Assembly: GCF_009833085.1 (NCBI RefSeq) | Contig: NZ_QRBZ01000002.1 | Span: 62,001-126,000 of the forward strand | Direction of reading: 5' to 3' | Length of the DNA: 64,000 bases | Origin: Nitrosomonas oligotropha | GTDB taxonomy: Bacteria > Pseudomonadota > Gammaproteobacteria > Burkholderiales > Nitrosomonadaceae | Part shown: positions 20,569 through 61,481 of the stretch, piece after piece | Layout: each line of letters starts with the position of its first letter | Numbering within the stretch: the first letter of the stretch is position 1 | Program-made: the position numbers and the translations under genes | The notes under the pieces: model-generated | The model's database searches: none | Seen by the model: only the letters and a program-made list of their open reading frames with translations | Told to the model about the DNA's origin: nothing

Positions 20569-21471
20569 ATGGAAAGTATTCGATCGATTAACGTGAATTA
20601 TCGCGGACGATTCGCGCCATCACCGACCGGACCGCTGCACTTGGGTTCGCTGGTCGCGGCCGTAGGCAGCTATGCCGATGCGAAATTTCATGGCGGCAAA
20701 TGGCTGGTTCGGATTGAGGATGTCGATTTGCAACGTAGAGTGCCCGGAGCGGCCAAGCAAATTTTGGATACGCTTGAGAAATTGGGTATGGAGTGGGACG
20801 AGGAAGTCATCTACCAAAGCCGCCGCTCCGAGGCATACCGGGACGCTTTGCAGGTTTTGAATGAACAAGGCTTGCTTTATCCCTGCACATGTTCCCGGAA
20901 GGAAATCGCCGATTCCAGCATCACCGGTTTATATGGTTACATTTACCCCGGAACCTGCCTGAATAATCCTGCCTCACCACAAAATGCACATGCGCTGCGT
21001 ATTCAAACTAATGATGAGATCATTACGTTTCACGATGGTTTGAAGGGACTGTATACGCAGAAACTGTGCAGTGAAGTGGGGGATTTTGTGTTACGACGGG
21101 CCGACGGAATTTATGCGTATCAGCTTGCGGTTGTTGTGGACGATGCCGCGCAGAATATTACCCATGTGGTTCGCGGCGCGGATCTCATCGATTCCACACC
21201 GCGGCAAATATTTCTGCAGCAGCTGCTGCGTTATCCGATACCGCACTACATGCACTTGCCCGTGGTCACAAACGCAGCAGGGGAGAAGCTCAGCAAGCAA
21301 ACAAACGCTGCTTCGGTGAATACCGCCGAGGCATTACAGGAGCTAGTTGATGCGCTGAATTTCCTGGGTCAGCAGCCGCCACTGGAAATTCTGCAAGGCG
21401 ATATTGCTTCTTTTTGGCGTTGGGTCATACAAAATTGGCGCGTGAATCAAATTCCAAACGGTGTGGTATAA
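20569..21471 (+). CDS. gluQ: Glutamyl-Q tRNA(Asp) synthetase
   Basis: GluQ charges glutamate onto the queuosine base of tRNA-Asp. It resembles the catalytic half of glutamyl-tRNA synthetase and lacks the anticodon-binding domain. At 300 residues it fits the family. The HIGH-type motif reads APSPTGPLHLGSL, the zinc-binding insert has CTCSRKEI with a later Cys, and the KMSKS-type motif reads EKLSKQT. The ribosome binding site is weak. It is followed by an NDH-like flavoprotein after 109 bases. Confidence 0.95.
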   Translation: MESIRSINVNYRGRFAPSPTGPLHLGSLVAAVGSYADAKFHGGKWLVRIEDVDLQRRVPGAAKQILDTLEKLGMEWDEEVIYQSRRSEAYRDALQVLNEQGLLYPCTCSRKEIADSSITGLYGYIYPGTCLNNPASPQNAHALRIQTNDEIITFHDGLKGLYTQKLCSEVGDFVLRRADGIYAYQLAVVVDDAAQNITHVVRGADLIDSTPRQIFLQQLLRYPIPHYMHLPVVTNAAGEKLSKQTNAASVNTAEALQELVDALNFLGQQPPLEILQGDIASFWRWVIQNWRVNQIPNGVV

Positions 21472-21580
21472 AGATAAAGCCATGCAGCCGGTAAGTATGC
21501 TAGGCTGTAGTGCAGCCGGGTTCAAGTTAACAATACTGGCAAGGTTTTGCGTTCATCATAGATAAAGGTAAGGAGTTACC

Positions 21581-22744
21581 GTGGCTTTTCTGCCATTTAA
21601 TATTTCCAAGCAAGAAAGATTGAAGGTGGTTATTGCCGGTGGCGGATATGCCGGTCTTGCCGCGTTGACCAATCTTTTACAATTTGCGCCAGATACCGAC
21701 ATTACGCTGATCGATCCTAAAACGCAGCATCTGAAGATTACGCACTTGCATGAAACATTTCGCTATCCGCTCGCCGATTTGCTGGTTCCTTTTGCCGATA
21801 TCGTAAGTCGTTACGGATGCCGGCATACTCCGGCAGCACTGAGCTTTGATCAAAGCGCGTTGGAGAGCTATCAGGACGAGCGGCAGCTGGTGGTGAATGG
21901 TGAAGTGATTGATTTTGATTATTTGATCGTTGCGAGCGGTTGCGAGAGCCAGGAACATGATCATAACGATAACGGCAATCTGCTGAATCTGCACGATTTT
22001 ACCACGGTGAGCGGAGCGGATTTATTGACCAGGTTGCTCGACCGGAGTGATTCACCGCAGCCGTCGATTTCGGTTGTGGGCGGAGGAGCCACGGGAATAC
22101 AGTTTTTGTTTGAAATAAAGCAATTTCTCGATCGGATCAGACATAAGGCGGAATTACGCCTTATCCATTCAGGTGAACATGTGCTGGAGCAATTTCCTGC
22201 CGGGTTTGGTACTTATGCGGAATCCCGCATGCGGGATATGAATATCGCTTTTTATCCGGCTACGTATTACCGTGCACAGCAAAGCGGAAAAATTTTACTG
22301 ACGGAAAAAGTGACTGAAAAGCAGTTTGAATTGCCTTCCAATTTGACCCTGCTGTTTTTGGGAAAAAAGCAGCGCAATATTTTTACCGCAAATGCTTTCG
22401 GACAGGTTATAGTTAATCAGAAGCCGCTGCCCAATATTTTTGTAGCGGGTGATTGTTCGTATTACCAGTCGCTCGGATCGAACACATTGACCGCGCAATC
22501 CGCTGTCCGGAAAGGTAAATTAGTGGCGCGTAACGTGCTGCGGCATGCGGGATTCCCCGGATTGCTCGAGCCTTATCTTCATCATGAATTGGGTTATGTG
22601 GTGAGCTTGGGACCGTCGGATGCGGTAGGTTGGCTGGTTGCGGAAGGTAACTTGATCACCGGTATTCCGGCTTTAGCGATTAAAGAAATTGTTGAGGCGC
22701 AATATGACTTATTATTGGCAGGAATCGATACCTATTTGGTTTAG
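21581..22744 (+). CDS. FAD-dependent NADH dehydrogenase-like (NDH-2 / pyridine nucleotide-disulfide oxidoreductase)
   Basis: A 387-residue flavoprotein with the FAD-binding VVIAGGGYAGLAALTNL near the N terminus, an NAD-binding ISVVGGGATGIQFLFEI in the middle, and the second FAD motif NIFVAGDCSYYQS. The pattern fits the type II NADH dehydrogenase/sulfide-quinone reductase group, but the quinone-site residues are not decisive. It starts with GTG after a good AAGGAG site. An SRPBCC protein follows after 24 bases and the LOV photoreceptor after that, so flavin-related functions may share a transcript. Confidence 0.85.
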   Translation: MAFLPFNISKQERLKVVIAGGGYAGLAALTNLLQFAPDTDITLIDPKTQHLKITHLHETFRYPLADLLVPFADIVSRYGCRHTPAALSFDQSALESYQDERQLVVNGEVIDFDYLIVASGCESQEHDHNDNGNLLNLHDFTTVSGADLLTRLLDRSDSPQPSISVVGGGATGIQFLFEIKQFLDRIRHKAELRLIHSGEHVLEQFPAGFGTYAESRMRDMNIAFYPATYYRAQQSGKILLTEKVTEKQFELPSNLTLLFLGKKQRNIFTANAFGQVIVNQKPLPNIFVAGDCSYYQSLGSNTLTAQSAVRKGKLVARNVLRHAGFPGLLEPYLHHELGYVVSLGPSDAVGWLVAEGNLITGIPALAIKEIVEAQYDLLLAGIDTYLV

Positions 22745-22768
22745 CAAACACCGTGCGGGAGGCATTTT

Positions 22769-23233
22769 ATGCTTGGTTTGTTCAAAGACAGCCCTGTAAT
22801 TGGCAAGGCCAGTGCAATAATTCAAAGTCCCACCGATAAACTTTTCAATTTTATCGGTAATGATCTGCTTATTAATTATCCTCGATGGTCTCCGGAAGTT
22901 AAGGAATTGGAGAAAATCACCGATGGTCCTATAAAAATAGGAACCGTCTGCCGTCAAGTCCGCATCGATCAAGGCAATCGTTCGGAGTCGACCTTCAAAG
23001 TTAAATTTTTTGATATTGGCGCGCGTATCTGTTTTGAAGGCGTTTCCAATCCGTACCGGTGTGATTATGTCATTGAATCAGTGAATGCTTCCGATAGCCG
23101 GATAACTTTTATTTTTGAGTTGCTGAGTTTGGATCTGCATGTCAGGCCGTTTGAGAAGCTGGTGCGTATCGCTGTTCAAGATGGAACCGAAAGAACTGTC
23201 AAGAATATCAAGAAACTGATCGAGGCGGAGTAG
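22769..23233 (+). CDS. SRPBCC / polyketide-cyclase-like small-ligand-binding protein
   Basis: A 154-residue protein resembling the START/SRPBCC helix-grip fold: an early ASAIIQSPTDKLFNFIGND segment, central strands with a WSPEV segment, and a long C-terminal helix (GTERTVKNIKKLIEAE). Such proteins bind hydrophobic ligands or act as cyclases or dehydratases. No catalytic residues can be named. It is 24 bases after the flavoprotein gene and 73 before the LOV gene, all on the plus strand. Confidence 0.7.
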   Translation: MLGLFKDSPVIGKASAIIQSPTDKLFNFIGNDLLINYPRWSPEVKELEKITDGPIKIGTVCRQVRIDQGNRSESTFKVKFFDIGARICFEGVSNPYRCDYVIESVNASDSRITFIFELLSLDLHVRPFEKLVRIAVQDGTERTVKNIKKLIEAE

Positions 23234-23306
23234 GTTGATTCGAAATGGCAGGCCCGTTCGTACGTATTTAATTATGCTAACAGTTGATTAACCTGGAGAG
23301 AAGATC

Positions 23307-23759
23307 ATGGATTTTATCGTTGAAAAAGACCCTGGATTAATTCCACAAGTATTGTCCAAGATTCTTGATTCATGTGTGAACGGTGTAACACTGGCTGATC
23401 CCGATCAAGAGGACATGCCTTTGGTTTATGTCAATAAAGCGTTCGAGATAATAACCGGTTATACGTTAGCGGAAACGGTAGGCAGGAACTGCCGTTTCTT
23501 GCAGGGTGATGAACACGATCAGACCGGTGTTAAGCAGCTGAAGGAAGGAATAAAGCATAGAAAACCGGTGGAAGTGGTTCTGAGAAACTTTCGTAAGAAC
23601 GGTGAGTTATTTTATAACCACTTACTGGTTTCCCCGCTCTTTGATTCGCACGGAAACTTACTTTATTTCCTCGGCGTGCAATTAGACATCACCCCGAAAA
23701 TCCGTGCGGAAGAGGAAATAAAGGCGTTGAAGGAACAACTGGCGGCACTCAAGCGATAA
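23307..23759 (+). CDS. Short LOV blue-light photoreceptor
   Basis: A 150-residue stand-alone PAS/LOV protein. The photoactive motif GRNCRFLQG places the flavin-adduct Cys at residue 62. Flavin contacts Asn94 (LRNFRKNG), Asn104 (FYNHLLVSP) and Gln125 (LGVQLDIT) are present, with the same spacing as in short LOV proteins of Pseudomonas putida. The C-terminal helix (RAEEEIKALKEQLAALKR) is a likely dimerising J-alpha coiled coil. There is no output domain, so signalling must go through a partner protein. A GGAGAG site precedes the start. Neighbours include a PAS-PAS histidine kinase and a response regulator-GGDEF-EAL protein on the opposite strand. Confidence 0.93.
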   Translation: MDFIVEKDPGLIPQVLSKILDSCVNGVTLADPDQEDMPLVYVNKAFEIITGYTLAETVGRNCRFLQGDEHDQTGVKQLKEGIKHRKPVEVVLRNFRKNGELFYNHLLVSPLFDSHGNLLYFLGVQLDITPKIRAEEEIKALKEQLAALKR

Positions 23760-31883: not shown

Positions 31884-32729
31884 ATGTTTGATACCGCAAT
31901 TGACACCATTGTCATGCGTCCCTATGTATTTACTTTTTTTGCGGCATTTCTGCTGGTTTGTGTGCCGCATTTGGGCTGGCGCAAGACGCTGACTTTTACA
32001 CTGGCCGGATATTTGATCGCGTTTACCTCCGAGAAACTCTCGATCACCACCGGATTTCCTTACGGCTGGTACTACTACATCGACGATACAAGCCATCAGG
32101 AGCTGTGGGTTTGGGGAGTGCCGTTCTTCGATTCGCTTTCTTACGTTTTCCTGACTTACTGCAGCTACACGACGGCATTGTTCATTCTGTCTCCGTTAGC
32201 GACCAAAGGTGCGGATCTGATCACGCTGGAGACGCGCGCCATCCGGCATTCTTGGGCCGCACTGGTATTGGGCGCTTTTTTGCAGACATTTCTGGATATC
32301 ATCATCGACCCGGTGGCATTGCAGGGAAATCGTTGGTTTCTTGGGCAAATTTACGGATACTACGAAGCAGGATTGCATTTTGGCGTACCGATTTCAAATT
32401 ACCTTGGCTGGCTGCTGACCAGTTTCCTGCTGGTGGCCGCTTTGCAGCAGATAGATCGCAAGCGGGACGGGAAAGCACCGCGCGGGATTTTTGCCATGCC
32501 GTTCCGTTCTCTGTTGGGGCCGGTTTTGTATTTGTCGGTACTGATCTTTAACTGGATAGTCACACTGTGGATCGGCGAGTATCTGATCGCGCTGACCGGT
32601 ATATTGATTTTTACCCTCCCGGTCGTCATGGTGATCGTTTTGGCTGCTTTGCGGGTCAACCGCTACCGTGCGGAAGAATTGCAGGAGCATTTGGAAAATT
32701 ATCCTTGGTCACCGCTGAATAAGTCATGA
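31884..32729 (+). CDS. Carotenoid biosynthesis protein, CruF/DUF422-like membrane protein
   Basis: A 281-residue polytopic membrane protein with about seven hydrophobic segments and the signature GFPYGWYYY followed by VWGVPFFDSLSYVFLTY and a DIIIDPVA motif. These match the carotenoid-synthesis (DUF422) family that includes CruF, a 1',2'-hydratase acting on gamma-carotene or lycopene ends. The exact substrate is unknown, and no other crt gene lies in the window, so the pathway would be encoded elsewhere or the protein may act on another isoprenoid. A TAGGAG site precedes the start. Confidence 0.85.
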   Translation: MFDTAIDTIVMRPYVFTFFAAFLLVCVPHLGWRKTLTFTLAGYLIAFTSEKLSITTGFPYGWYYYIDDTSHQELWVWGVPFFDSLSYVFLTYCSYTTALFILSPLATKGADLITLETRAIRHSWAALVLGAFLQTFLDIIIDPVALQGNRWFLGQIYGYYEAGLHFGVPISNYLGWLLTSFLLVAALQQIDRKRDGKAPRGIFAMPFRSLLGPVLYLSVLIFNWIVTLWIGEYLIALTGILIFTLPVVMVIVLAALRVNRYRAEELQEHLENYPWSPLNKS

Positions 32730-57717: not shown

Positions 57718-58386
57718 TTATGCGTTTGCTTTTTTGCGGCGTGCTGCGAAACCCAACAATCCGAGACCGGCTAACAGCATGGCATAAGTTTCGGGTTCGG
57801 GAACCGGTGCAATACCGGCGACACCAACTGTAAATCCATGCCAGCCTTCGGAAACATGGGTAAACGTGATGGAATCAAAAGAACCTGGCAATCTGATCAC
57901 GCCGTGAACTTCACCGGAACCGAAGAATCCTGTGCTTGTTCCGTTCAGAATGGGTGTGCCGGAACCCCAGTATCCAGGACCGAAGCTGTCGATTACGATA
58001 GGCACGCCAAAATCCACGGTGTTGCCATTCCAGCTGACCAATCCGATGTATGGATCCACGACGGTTTGTGAAAATTTGATCGTGACGGTACCGCCTGTGC
58101 TAAGTGCAACGATGTCGGAAGCGGGCGGCGCGTTATCGACGGTGCCGTTGGTATACGCTGTTCCTGTCCAAAAATTCGTTCCTGCGCCGGTTGTTACGAA
58201 AGAATGCGCACCGGTAGCGGAGTAACCGACACCGACCGTGGTTGATCCAACCAACAGATCGCCGGATGCCGAAAACGAATCGGTTGAGGTGGTCCAATCC
58301 GTCCAGGATACGGTTACCGCAAATGCGGATGCAGAGAACAAAGTTGTAATGAGAGATCCGGCTGCGAGTTGTATGATGCGTTTCAT
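57718..58386 (-). CDS. PEP-CTERM exported protein of unknown function
   Basis: A 222-residue protein. The ATG at 58386 has AAGGTG 6 bases before it; a GTG nine bases upstream is less likely. It has a signal peptide (MKRIIQLAAGSLITTLFSAS), a Ser/Thr/Gly-rich beta-type mature domain (TVSWTDWTTSTDSFSASG), and the PEP-CTERM tail VPEPETYAMLLAGLGLLG with RRKK. It would be processed by an exosortase encoded elsewhere and is a likely surface or matrix protein. The second PEP-CTERM gene in the window, it lies next to the BLUF/EAL operon. Confidence 0.88.
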   Translation of the reverse strand: MKRIIQLAAGSLITTLFSASAFAVTVSWTDWTTSTDSFSASGDLLVGSTTVGVGYSATGAHSFVTTGAGTNFWTGTAYTNGTVDNAPPASDIVALSTGGTVTIKFSQTVVDPYIGLVSWNGNTVDFGVPIVIDSFGPGYWGSGTPILNGTSTGFFGSGEVHGVIRLPGSFDSITFTHVSEGWHGFTVGVAGIAPVPEPETYAMLLAGLGLLGFAARRKKANA

Positions 58387-58692
58387 GATGTTCACCTTAT
58401 GCCTGAGTAAGTAAAAATAAATCCAATCGTTACCAACGATATATTCAACACTAAGGCGATATGCTAACCGGTAAGGCGGTTTAATGCTGTAGTCAGATGT
58501 TCCTTAATTTTTTAGGACGATTGCCCTGGTTACGGGGTACACGATGCGTGTAATTTGGCAAATTGGTTGTTGGAATAGGTATTCGCGGTCACCGGAAATT
58601 GTGTGGTACGCAAGGTTGATTGGGTTGACGAGAGGATTTCCCGCCGGGATGAAAGTTTACTTTACAGCGATGAATTAGCGGTTTGGTCCGGG
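58387..58692. other. Gap between the PEP-CTERM gene and the BLUF gene
   Basis: No gene is seen in 306 bases. A short hairpin ATCGTT-ACC-AACGAT (58426-58440) lies in the leader of the PEP-CTERM gene, and AACCG-N6-CGGTT (58466-58481) lies just upstream. I found no convincing c-di-GMP aptamer here, unlike the leader of the PhoX-like gene, and no clear sigma-54 site. Confidence 0.4.
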
Positions 58693-59154
58693 TTAAGCAA
58701 TTTTCTCCAGATCGCTGCCGGTTTTTTCAGCCGCGTATAAATGCACGTGCAACAGATCGTATATGCGCTCCCCGCTGAGTTGCTTCACATCGAATCCCGT
58801 CGCCAGCTGGATTTGCGTGAATTCCTTGCTGGCCAGGGTATCGTAGCCGATGTAGCCCATCGACCAGCGTGAGAAGCGGCGCGTGTCTACCGGCTCGAAA
58901 TCAAGAACTACCACGTCGCCATGGCGCGGATCGCACTGAATGCGCTCAAAAGTTTCCTGAATCTGATCGTGCACGCCTTCGAGCACCTGAGCAAAGCATT
59001 CGCGGTTGAACATGAGCGCGCCGGTAATGCCGGATGCCGCATTCCGTTGCCGGGAAATGGCCAGTATCTGCTCGATTTCCTGATGAACATTTTCGTTGCT
59101 GCCAAGAATCGTATTGCGGCTTAAATAAATGAGCCGGTATAAATTTTGCGTCAT
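58693..59154 (-). CDS. BLUF-domain blue-light receptor
   Basis: A 153-residue short BLUF protein. The FAD photocycle residues are present: Tyr10 (LYRLIYLSR), Asn38 (RQRNAASGITG), Gln56 (CFAQVLEG), and Trp97/Met99 (RFSRWSMGY). After the BLUF core, about 45 residues form C-terminal helices. There is no output domain, so it signals through a partner. It starts 32 bases after the stop of a PAS-GGDEF-EAL gene with GAGGAAG before it, hence one operon. This arrangement recalls the PapB-PapA pair of Rhodopseudomonas palustris, where a short BLUF protein controls an EAL enzyme. Confidence 0.95.
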   Translation of the reverse strand: MTQNLYRLIYLSRNTILGSNENVHQEIEQILAISRQRNAASGITGALMFNRECFAQVLEGVHDQIQETFERIQCDPRHGDVVVLDFEPVDTRRFSRWSMGYIGYDTLASKEFTQIQLATGFDVKQLSGERIYDLLHVHLYAAEKTGSDLEKIA

Positions 59155-59186
59155 GGTTGCTTCCTCACTGCGATGGTCATCGTAAA

Positions 59187-60857
59187 CTATGATATGAGCG
59201 CTTGAATTTGTTCAGCCGGGACCGGTTTGCTGATTAAATAGCCTTGAATTTCCATGCAACCATTACGTGCCAGATAATCGAACTGCTCTTCTGTTTCAAC
59301 GCCTTCGGCCAGGGTTTTTATCCCCAGCGCGTTACCGAGCGTGATTACCGCTTTAATCAGGGTGCGTGACTTGTCAATTTGCATACGGTGAACAAACGAT
59401 TGATCGATTTTGATTTTTGAAAACGGAAAACTGCTCAAATAATTGAGAGAAGAATATCCTGTGCCAAAATCATCCATCGCGACGGATACGCCCAACGCCT
59501 GTATTTCCCTGAGTTGTTCCAATGCGTTGGTTACATTTTTGATCAGCAAGCCCTCGGTGATTTCCAGTTCCAGGCGCTGCGGCGTGAGGCCGCTGGCTGA
59601 AAGCGCCGCTTGAACGATTTGCTTCAGGTTGCCGCTTTCAAACTGCACGGGAGAGACATTGACGGCGATCTTGATGTCTTCCGGCCAGGCCGTTGCTTCC
59701 CGGCAAGCCGTTTGCAGCACCCACTTGCCGATTTCGTGAATTTCCCCGGTTTCCTCCGCCAGTGGAATAAAACGGACCGGCGATATGATTCCGGCACCCG
59801 GTTTTTCCCAACGGATCAGTGCTTCAAAGCCCACTATTTTTCTATCCTGCATGCGGACTTGCGCTTGATAAAATAACGTAAATTCCTGCAAAAAAAGCGC
59901 GCGCCGCAAGCCAACCTCAAGATCATACTGTTCACCCGCATTCTTTTGCAGCGATTGCTCATACAAGCGGTAGCTCCCGCGCGCGTTGTGCTTGGCATCA
60001 TGCAGCGCCAATTCGGCATGCTTGATCAGATCGTCGCTTGATTCGGTATCTTGATGCAAAATCGCCAGTCCGATGCTGGCGCTGATATTGGCTTGTTGAC
60101 CATTGATCAAAAAAGGGCGCTTGAGCAGCTCGATGATGCGTTCCGCCATTGCGATAGCAGCGACGGGTTGATTTTGATTGATTTGCAGCACGACGAATTG
60201 ATCGCCTGCAAAATGCGCCACGAGATCATCCGAGCGAACGATGCGTAACAACCGCTGCGCGGCAAATTTCAATAATTGATCACCGGCATCGTGCCCCAGC
60301 GTTTCATTGATCCGCTTGAAGCGATCCAGGCCGATCATGATCATGGCCAGCGAAGCAGCGCCGGATTCATCCGGCTTCCAATGTGCGATGCATTCATTGA
60401 GCATGCCGCGACTGGCCAATGGCACAGCGCTATGATTCTGTGCCTGATGGTTGATTCCGGATTGAGAAAAATTGCCGGAAGACAGATTCTCAACCATGAT
60501 CAACCGCTGTTCCTGATTGCACGCGATGACATGCACATGAAGCGTTTTGTTATCGACGGCGGAAACCAGTTTGATCGTTTCCGTATGCTGCCCGGCAACG
60601 GCTTGCCGGAGTAAACCGGCTGCCGATGCATTGAGCGGTGCGATCAAATCAAACAATGTTTTATTCGCAACATCCGCTGGCAGGGCAAGTAGATTCAGAA
60701 AAGCCGGATTGGCGGAAATGATTTTTCCTGCCGTATCCACCCAAGCGAATCCGCAAGGCGAATCGATAGCCGTAAAATCCATTGCACTATGCTGTGATTG
60801 ACGATTGTTAATCTTGAGCTCCCCAATGGCTGAATGATTCAGGGAATTATAAATCAT
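59187..60857 (-). CDS. PAS-GGDEF-EAL protein with degenerate GGDEF, probable c-di-GMP phosphodiesterase
   Basis: A 556-residue soluble protein. A PAS-like region (about residues 26-125) precedes a GGDEF domain whose active site reads AGDQF (217-221) instead of GGDEF, with the RxxD site RSDD kept at 208-211. It is therefore probably not a cyclase, although GTP or c-di-GMP binding may remain. The EAL domain is intact: EAL at 345-347 in FEALIRW, AVNVSPVQF, LEITEGLL, DDFGTGYSS, KIDQSFV and EGVET. It should hydrolyse c-di-GMP. It is the first gene of the operon with the BLUF gene. Whether the PAS binds a cofactor is unknown. Confidence 0.94.
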   Translation of the reverse strand: MIYNSLNHSAIGELKINNRQSQHSAMDFTAIDSPCGFAWVDTAGKIISANPAFLNLLALPADVANKTLFDLIAPLNASAAGLLRQAVAGQHTETIKLVSAVDNKTLHVHVIACNQEQRLIMVENLSSGNFSQSGINHQAQNHSAVPLASRGMLNECIAHWKPDESGAASLAMIMIGLDRFKRINETLGHDAGDQLLKFAAQRLLRIVRSDDLVAHFAGDQFVVLQINQNQPVAAIAMAERIIELLKRPFLINGQQANISASIGLAILHQDTESSDDLIKHAELALHDAKHNARGSYRLYEQSLQKNAGEQYDLEVGLRRALFLQEFTLFYQAQVRMQDRKIVGFEALIRWEKPGAGIISPVRFIPLAEETGEIHEIGKWVLQTACREATAWPEDIKIAVNVSPVQFESGNLKQIVQAALSASGLTPQRLELEITEGLLIKNVTNALEQLREIQALGVSVAMDDFGTGYSSLNYLSSFPFSKIKIDQSFVHRMQIDKSRTLIKAVITLGNALGIKTLAEGVETEEQFDYLARNGCMEIQGYLISKPVPAEQIQALIS

Positions 60858-61027: not shown

Positions 61028-61282
61028 TTACCGGTAAACTTCGCGGCGATGGCCGATGCGAATAACTAACACCGTCAATTGTGCATCATGCACTTCGTAT
61101 ACAACGCGATACGAACCGATGCGAATGCGGCGCAGTCCTGAATATTCTCCTTTGAGCACGCCACCAGCAGCCGGGTTTATTTTAAGTTGATCAATCGCTT
61201 CGATAATGCGGAGCCGATCTTCATAGGCTATGTTTCTTAATGACTTCAGCGCGCTTTGCTTAATGCTGACGGAGTAACTCAT
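61028..61282 (-). CDS. RelE/ParE-family toxin
   Basis: An 84-residue basic protein with SVSIKQSALKSLRNIAYEDR, KLINPAAGG-type middle (shown as LKINPAAGGVLKGEY) and RRIRIGSYRVVYEV, the RelE/ParE fold. RelE types cut mRNA on the ribosome, ParE types inhibit gyrase; sequence alone does not decide. Its start overlaps the antitoxin gene by 23 bases, the usual coupling in which antitoxin comes first. Confidence 0.88.
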   Translation of the reverse strand: MSYSVSIKQSALKSLRNIAYEDRLRIIEAIDQLKINPAAGGVLKGEYSGLRRIRIGSYRVVYEVHDAQLTVLVIRIGHRREVYR

Positions 61283-61481
61283 GCTTTGCGGTTTCCCAAT
61301 CTAATACTGGATCAGCCGGATCGCGCAAAACTTCTATGGCACGGGAAATATCTTCAAAATCGTCCAGGTAATATTCAACAGCCTGTCTGATTACATCGGC
61401 ACGCGTGCGATGCAATTTTGTAGCAGCTTCATCCAGAGCAGCAATCAATTCATCCGGTAGTCTTGCTGATATTTGGCTCAT
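61260..61481 (-). CDS. Ribbon-helix-helix antitoxin
   Basis: A 73-residue protein with SARLPDELIAALDEAATKLHRTRADVIRQAVEYYL (shown in part as ISARLPDELIAALDE), the MetJ/Arc-type ribbon-helix-helix. The C-terminal acidic half binds the toxin encoded next. It would repress its own operon. The gene has GGAA before the ATG. The pair is a type II toxin-antitoxin module in an accessory stretch. Confidence 0.88.
   Translation of the reverse strand: MSQISARLPDELIAALDEAATKLHRTRADVIRQAVEYYLDDFEDISRAIEVLRDPADPVLDWETAKHELLRQH

Follow-up and report, generated by a model that had tools for sequence, protein, structure and literature searches.

Among described systems, PapB-PapA of Rhodopseudomonas palustris already provides two-protein control of an EAL enzyme by a BLUF protein. 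According to the available parts of PMC8846402 and PMC4844311, PapB reduces biofilm under blue light and works on PapA as part of a complex, and the former adds that the signal to PapA is thought to pass through the C-terminal helices of PapB. In BlrP1 of Klebsiella pneumoniae, beta4 and the capping helices of the BLUF domain contact the EAL domain near the compound helix at the dimer interface, and the capping helices have an output role (PMC3989770, in the accessible passages). As for PixD of Synechocystis, an excerpt of PMC5899715 names Tyr8, Asn32, Gln50 and Trp91 as photocycle residues. A 2014 review counts 64% of BLUF proteins as short and, in the portion at hand, makes no mention of linkage between BLUF and phosphodiesterase genes (PMC4844311).

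Here we describe two adjoining genes in a 64-kb stretch of DNA, called the window. The best full explanation, to which we give a probability of roughly 70%, is that their two proteins together form a single c-di-GMP phosphodiesterase switched by light.

A BLUF gene and its phosphodiesterase neighbour

Both genes lie on the minus strand, as do all of their parts given below. The gene for the phosphodiesterase (PDE), of 556 aa, is upstream (60857-59187) and the BLUF gene, of 153 aa, is downstream (59154-58693). The 32-nt gap between them (59155-59186) holds a GAGG that resembles a ribosome-binding site, 8 nt before the BLUF ATG, and a terminator-like site was not found in it. A scan gave promoter-like and terminator-like sites at levels not above shuffled sequences, and Rfam returned zero matches at gathering scores in the 64 kb.

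The BLUF protein matches PF04940 at 101.2 bits, against a curated cut-off of 25, over residues 5-100 (58855-59142). Its Y10, N38, Q56, W97 and M99 align with PixD/Slr1694 (2hfn) in phmmer, which is also the closest solved BLUF by sequence (E 2.8e-17), and these five photocycle residues are invariant in all 25 aligned BLUF sequences, the window's own counted. The part C-terminal to the core, residues 101-153 with the stop codon (58693-58854), forms helices in the AF2 model of a relative (L020), where the pLDDT falls below 50 toward the BLUF C-terminal end. By analogy with BlrP1, this segment is likely the signal output. Of the named genomes represented in the retrieved loci, N. oligotropha Nm75 is the closest, with a BLUF that is 93% identical. 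A genome-wide profile search found no second BLUF match in the window genome; EAL matches number 26.

In terms of Pfam domains, the PDE scores 228.7 bits for EAL (residues 317-550, 59208-59909) and 111.2 bits for GGDEF (residues 150-300, 59958-60410). Its PAS match of 22.1 bits is slightly below the cut-off of 22.6. The AlphaFold model, with a mean pLDDT of 83, has strands and helices ordered much as in a PAS domain at residues 36-124, with block pLDDT of 76-87 over residues 31-120, and we assign a PAS-like domain to residues 33-125 (60483-60761). Foldseek matches this model to DosP, MorA, PA0575 and the PAS-GGDEF-EAL protein PA0861. Against NCBIfam equivalogs the protein is far below the cut-offs, with 386 bits vs 980 for DibA.

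The EAL domain has a full catalytic set. At the positions that we take to be metal- and substrate-binding, it carries E345, N400, E432, E435, D462, D463, K483, E518, E521 and Q538, and the alignment gives MorA the same catalytic residues. The cyclase site of the GGDEF domain is degenerate. With position roles and numbering assumed to be those of PleD, the residues expected of a diguanylate cyclase are replaced at G176 (metal Asp), H215 (Arg before the motif), A217 and Q220, and the damage goes further than the AGDQF (residues 217-221, 60195-60209) that stands in place of GGDEF. The preliminary description of this DNA had noted a short BLUF protein with the full photocycle set (Tyr10, Asn38, Gln56, Trp97, Met99), encoded 32 nt after a PAS-GGDEF-EAL gene, and an AGDQF beside intact EAL motifs. 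The Pfam match and PixD alignment, the ORF coordinates and strand, and the residue table agree with it on these points.

The same pattern is seen in all nine Nitrosomonas partners, the window counted: Gly stands at the metal Asp position, His or Ala takes the place of the Arg ahead of the motif, and GGDEF has lost both its first Gly and its Glu. MorA keeps the canonical residue at all of these positions. Asn184, Asp193 and the RxxD stretch (208-211) are retained in the nine. Among the 37 partners that cover both domains, 21 have a canonical GGDEF site, none of them from Nitrosomonas, and site loss is therefore a matter of lineage. These 21 sites would favour a GGDEF domain that still works as a cyclase, with light setting the balance between cyclase and phosphodiesterase. 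Given the replacements in all nine Nitrosomonas partners, we regard this reading as very improbable, and for Nitrosomonas an active cyclase was rejected.

We compared substitution rates with three close relatives, one comparison having a dS near 1. On that basis dN/dS is 0.06-0.09 for BLUF, 0.07-0.10 for the degenerate GGDEF and 0.07-0.12 for EAL, with a looser 0.27-0.37 for PAS. The low values for BLUF, GGDEF and EAL argue that the pair is not a chance arrangement. The GGDEF value, like those of BLUF and EAL, amounts to strong purifying selection, by which we dismissed a decaying GGDEF domain.

The EAL catalytic residues are retained in 36 of the 37 partners that cover both domains. The exception is the linked partner in Granulicella aggregans (L040), where EAL is broken and GGDEF intact; not every pair, then, has hydrolysis as its output. 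Judged by these residues, the Granulicella pair is possibly a light-regulated cyclase.

Distribution and surroundings of the pair

BLUF matches were found in 14 of 125 Nitrosomonadaceae genomes. Nine of these have a BLUF of the window type, in each case with a GGDEF-EAL gene directly upstream. A marker for the PDE is present in the same nine genomes and in 0 of the 116 others (E 0.001). This marker is the fast-evolving N-terminus, whose weakest match has 27% identity, so a diverged PDE in genomes lacking BLUF could be missed. The preliminary description had suggested looking for the same gene pair in other Nitrosomonadaceae, and there the two genes do occur together and adjacent, in 9 of 9 genomes with this BLUF. 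The family's other BLUF proteins are a 402-aa BLUF-EAL protein (G075), a short BLUF from a different branch that has no linked partner (G059), and BLUF-cyclase proteins, whole or fragmentary. G075 is a Nitrosomonas genome with both the pair and, separately, the 402-aa single chain (L047:5192-6400).

In all nine genomes the pair adjoins genes for hemerythrin, focA and hemN, and at this fixed site a recent insertion in the window genome is unsupported. The pair is absent from the focA-hemN locus in 18 of 18 fetched relatives that have a focA match and no pair; in three of them (L212, L213, L216) the fetched stretch stops close to the site, and absence genome-wide comes from the BLUF and PDE-marker searches. 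One of them, L212, is the window's nearest neighbour on the FocA+HemN tree. Over the 27 loci of this tree, presence of the pair changes 6 times, against a shuffled mean of about 7.6, so it is hardly clustered. Repeated loss most simply fits this distribution in Nitrosomonas, with gain as an alternative account that fits less well. The pair is an accessory module at a fixed place, patchy and no general trait of ammonia oxidisers.

Just upstream of the PDE gene the window has a ParE-like toxin together with a ribbon-helix-helix protein (61028-61481, minus strand). Just downstream of BLUF is a PEP-CTERM protein (57718-58395, minus strand); a PEP-CTERM gene stands at this place in three of the nine pair loci, and also in three fetched loci without the pair.

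Looking beyond the Nitrosomonadaceae, we retrieved 29 loci with BLUF similarity as the sole criterion. In 25 of them the gene immediately upstream, in the same orientation, encodes a GGDEF-EAL protein (a fragment in L033). Seven of the 29 are Nitrosomonas, and 18 of the other 22 are linked, counting the fragment. The four without a directly upstream partner are L028, L042, L045 and L043, the last with an EAL gene that ends 391 nt ahead of the BLUF frame. At several of these loci the two genes overlap by 4 nt. Linked hosts include Methylicorpusculum, Methyloglobulus, Salinisphaera, Granulosicoccus, Sphingomonas, Faunimonas, Salinicola and Granulicella.

The pair is also found on plasmids, namely in Aureimonas AU20, with a 4-nt overlap, and in Skermanella mucosa. 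On the latter plasmid, pSM-1 (L201), it stands directly before the bacteriochlorophyll genes bchE and bchJ. In Rhizobium CC-CFT758 the EAL frame before the plasmid BLUF is in pieces, and the partner is absent from the PLSDB table.

We called a BLUF gene linked when a GGDEF-EAL gene lies upstream within 100 nt on the same strand. By this definition, control BLUF loci unselected for likeness to the window are linked in 1 of 29 cases (class sample), 4 of 30 (order sample) and 6 of 80 (additional). The class-sample loci scored as unlinked include one with a GGDEF-only frame about 200 nt upstream (L073) and one with a partial GGDEF/EAL match about 470 nt upstream (L074). We reject chance adjacency because the two genes co-occur in the family and the control samples are rarely linked.

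A FastTree phylogeny of 180 BLUF rows, one of them (L050) having no upstream sequence, places 36 of the 37 linked BLUFs in one group of 45, together with 8 unlinked rows and a fusion protein (L087). Local SH-like support for this group is 86-89, unstarred, from few columns. The linkage label changes 5 times on the tree, against a shuffled mean of 34.1, and 0 of 500 shuffles were as low. Linkage as a general property of BLUF genes was discarded, with 141 of the 180 rows unlinked.

The window contains other light-related genes. A short LOV protein (23307-23759, plus strand), likely a second blue-light receptor, reaches 150 bits to the NCBIfam YtvA family, below its cut-off of 250, and carries NCRFLQG, which we take to be the LOV motif. 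It is preceded by a flavin oxidoreductase and a weak polyketide-cyclase-like match, all within 20569-23759 (plus strand). A carotenoid biosynthesis family protein matches at 99 bits (31884-32729, plus strand), and the genome has a photolyase-family match elsewhere. Other Nitrosomonas encode chains of about 1,200 aa (L051:3347-6967, L053:5227-8856, L052:587-4069) with 81-88% mutual identity, in which Pfam, run on the first two, finds DoxX, pyridine-nucleotide oxidoreductase, cNMP-binding, BLUF and cyclase domains. In L051 this gene directly follows a LOV cluster like that of the window, and a gene that looks by eye like a photolyase is found two genes on.

Probable coupling of the two proteins and a possible mechanism

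In a Granulosicoccus MAG (L087), a degenerate GGDEF, EAL and BLUF lie in one 699-aa frame; this is a single case from a single MAG. With the conservation of the pair in several classes, this natural EAL-BLUF fusion leads us to infer that BLUF and PDE are functionally coupled.

Linked BLUFs differ from others at particular residues. Q73 and E70 are found in 36 of 36 linked BLUFs, compared with 6% and 16% of 138 unlinked ones, and A55 (97% vs 16%) and N14 (92% vs 14%) behave similarly. In the C-terminal part of BLUF, G103, F121 and G128 are also typical of the linked type. Over 36 pairs, BLUF distances track PDE distances (r 0.89; 0 of 1000 permutations). This agreement shows that the pair is transmitted as a unit, would follow from linkage alone, and does not show binding. 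The AF2 model of the L020 pair, read through as one chain, has a pTM of 0.52 vs 0.59 for the PDE alone, and the docking is not confident.

The BLUF protein might instead act on another target, for example a transcription factor, with the PDE merely co-transcribed. Partners of this kind have been described, BluF acting on BluR and BlsA on Fur (PMC3509220 and PMC5955987, in the sections available), and the linked tree group itself has members without an adjoining PDE gene (L028, L042, L045). Against this, the one fused genome (L087) joins BLUF to EAL, and an unsystematic comparison of the loci with genes listed brought up no other common neighbour. We find such a target quite unlikely. The reading we prefer is that the BLUF protein probably binds the PDE and switches it with light, as PapB does PapA.

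On this two-protein reading, a BlrP1/PapB-like route across two chains may be the simplest account of switching. The FAD presumably bound by BLUF would absorb blue light, with rearrangement of the hydrogen bonds between Tyr10, Gln56 and the flavin. The signal could then pass through the last BLUF strands and the C-terminal helices to the EAL dimer of the PAS-GGDEF-EAL partner, in a putative complex of the two. In Nitrosomonas the GGDEF domain, degenerate at the cyclase site yet under selection, would probably be a nucleotide-binding or structural relay. Hydrolysis of c-di-GMP by EAL would change in the light, most likely rising, and the lower c-di-GMP may favour leaving biofilm or not building it.

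As for the direction of the change, activation of the PDE by light seems likelier than inhibition, since Table 1 of PMC8846402, in the part at hand, marks every BLUF phosphodiesterase case as light-positive. Activation and inhibition cannot be told apart from the sequence, and PMC5812497, in its accessible text, reports that light dissociates the PixD-PixE complex. A PDE inhibited by light, or a switch that is mainly the release of a complex as in PixD-PixE, therefore has something in its favour; set against the light-positive cases of that table, we think it unlikely.

Taken more widely, the pair may represent a widespread, dedicated two-gene family of light-gated phosphodiesterases, in which a PAS-GGDEF-EAL protein with its own BLUF clade integrates three inputs, namely blue light, a signal through PAS and the nucleotide state of GGDEF, a domain without cyclase function in certain lineages. 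Some Nitrosomonas would thereby leave a biofilm or surface on which blue light puts their ammonia monooxygenase at risk. This claim as a whole is a tentative one, and doubtful in its entirety.

Ammonia oxidation and comparison with known systems

An AMO-family gene is found in the window genome (PF02461, 395.6 bits), in keeping with an ammonia oxidiser. Inhibition of ammonia oxidation by light is well documented (PMC9239080, excerpt), and leaving lit surfaces would make sense under it. The preliminary description had proposed light-controlled c-di-GMP breakdown as a new link in this group. The AMO gene is consistent with the proposal, but the pair occurs in just 9 of 125 family genomes. With its 6 changes of presence, it cannot be the reason why light inhibits ammonia oxidation in general, and so scattered an occurrence speaks for a niche trait.

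For nitrite oxidisers, the available part of PMC12943234 already mentions that BLUF is connected with blue light, citing a 2024 Water Research paper. In titles, abstract starts and some passages, a search that took in little of the subscription literature, we found nothing that connects a BLUF-PDE pair with Nitrosomonas or ammonia oxidisers. Likewise, titles and abstract starts gave no prior description of a PAS-GGDEF-EAL protein as the partner, of a pair that spreads together with one BLUF clade, or of a fusion with BLUF last.

What we propose is a concrete and testable way for blue light to act on c-di-GMP in bacteria in which light inhibits the oxidation of ammonia. The 37 linked rows and the one fusion form a natural set of homologues for how a free BLUF switches an EAL enzyme, and E70 and Q73 of BLUF are ready targets for the study of switching.

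DosP, MorA, PA0575 (presumably RmcA) and PA0861 resemble the PDE of the window in domain order and fold. RmcA responds to blue light via its own PAS domain, according to the table in PMC8846402.

PixD-PixE has in common with our proposal a short BLUF that acts on another protein. PixE is a CheY-PATAN protein, response-regulator-like and no phosphodiesterase, in the available text of PMC5812497, whereas the partner here is an EAL protein.

BlrP1 would resemble the proposed pair in that BLUF controls an EAL dimer. It is a single chain with BLUF first; here there are two genes, and the L087 fusion has BLUF last.

Lastly, the likeness to PapB-PapA drawn in the preliminary description stands in part. 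Its two-protein layout is present here, with a stand-alone short BLUF and a separate EAL phosphodiesterase encoded by linked genes 32 nt apart. The likeness does not extend to the enzyme, since PapA is a solo EAL domain (PMC8846402, available part) and the partner in the window combines a PAS-like domain, a degenerate GGDEF and EAL.
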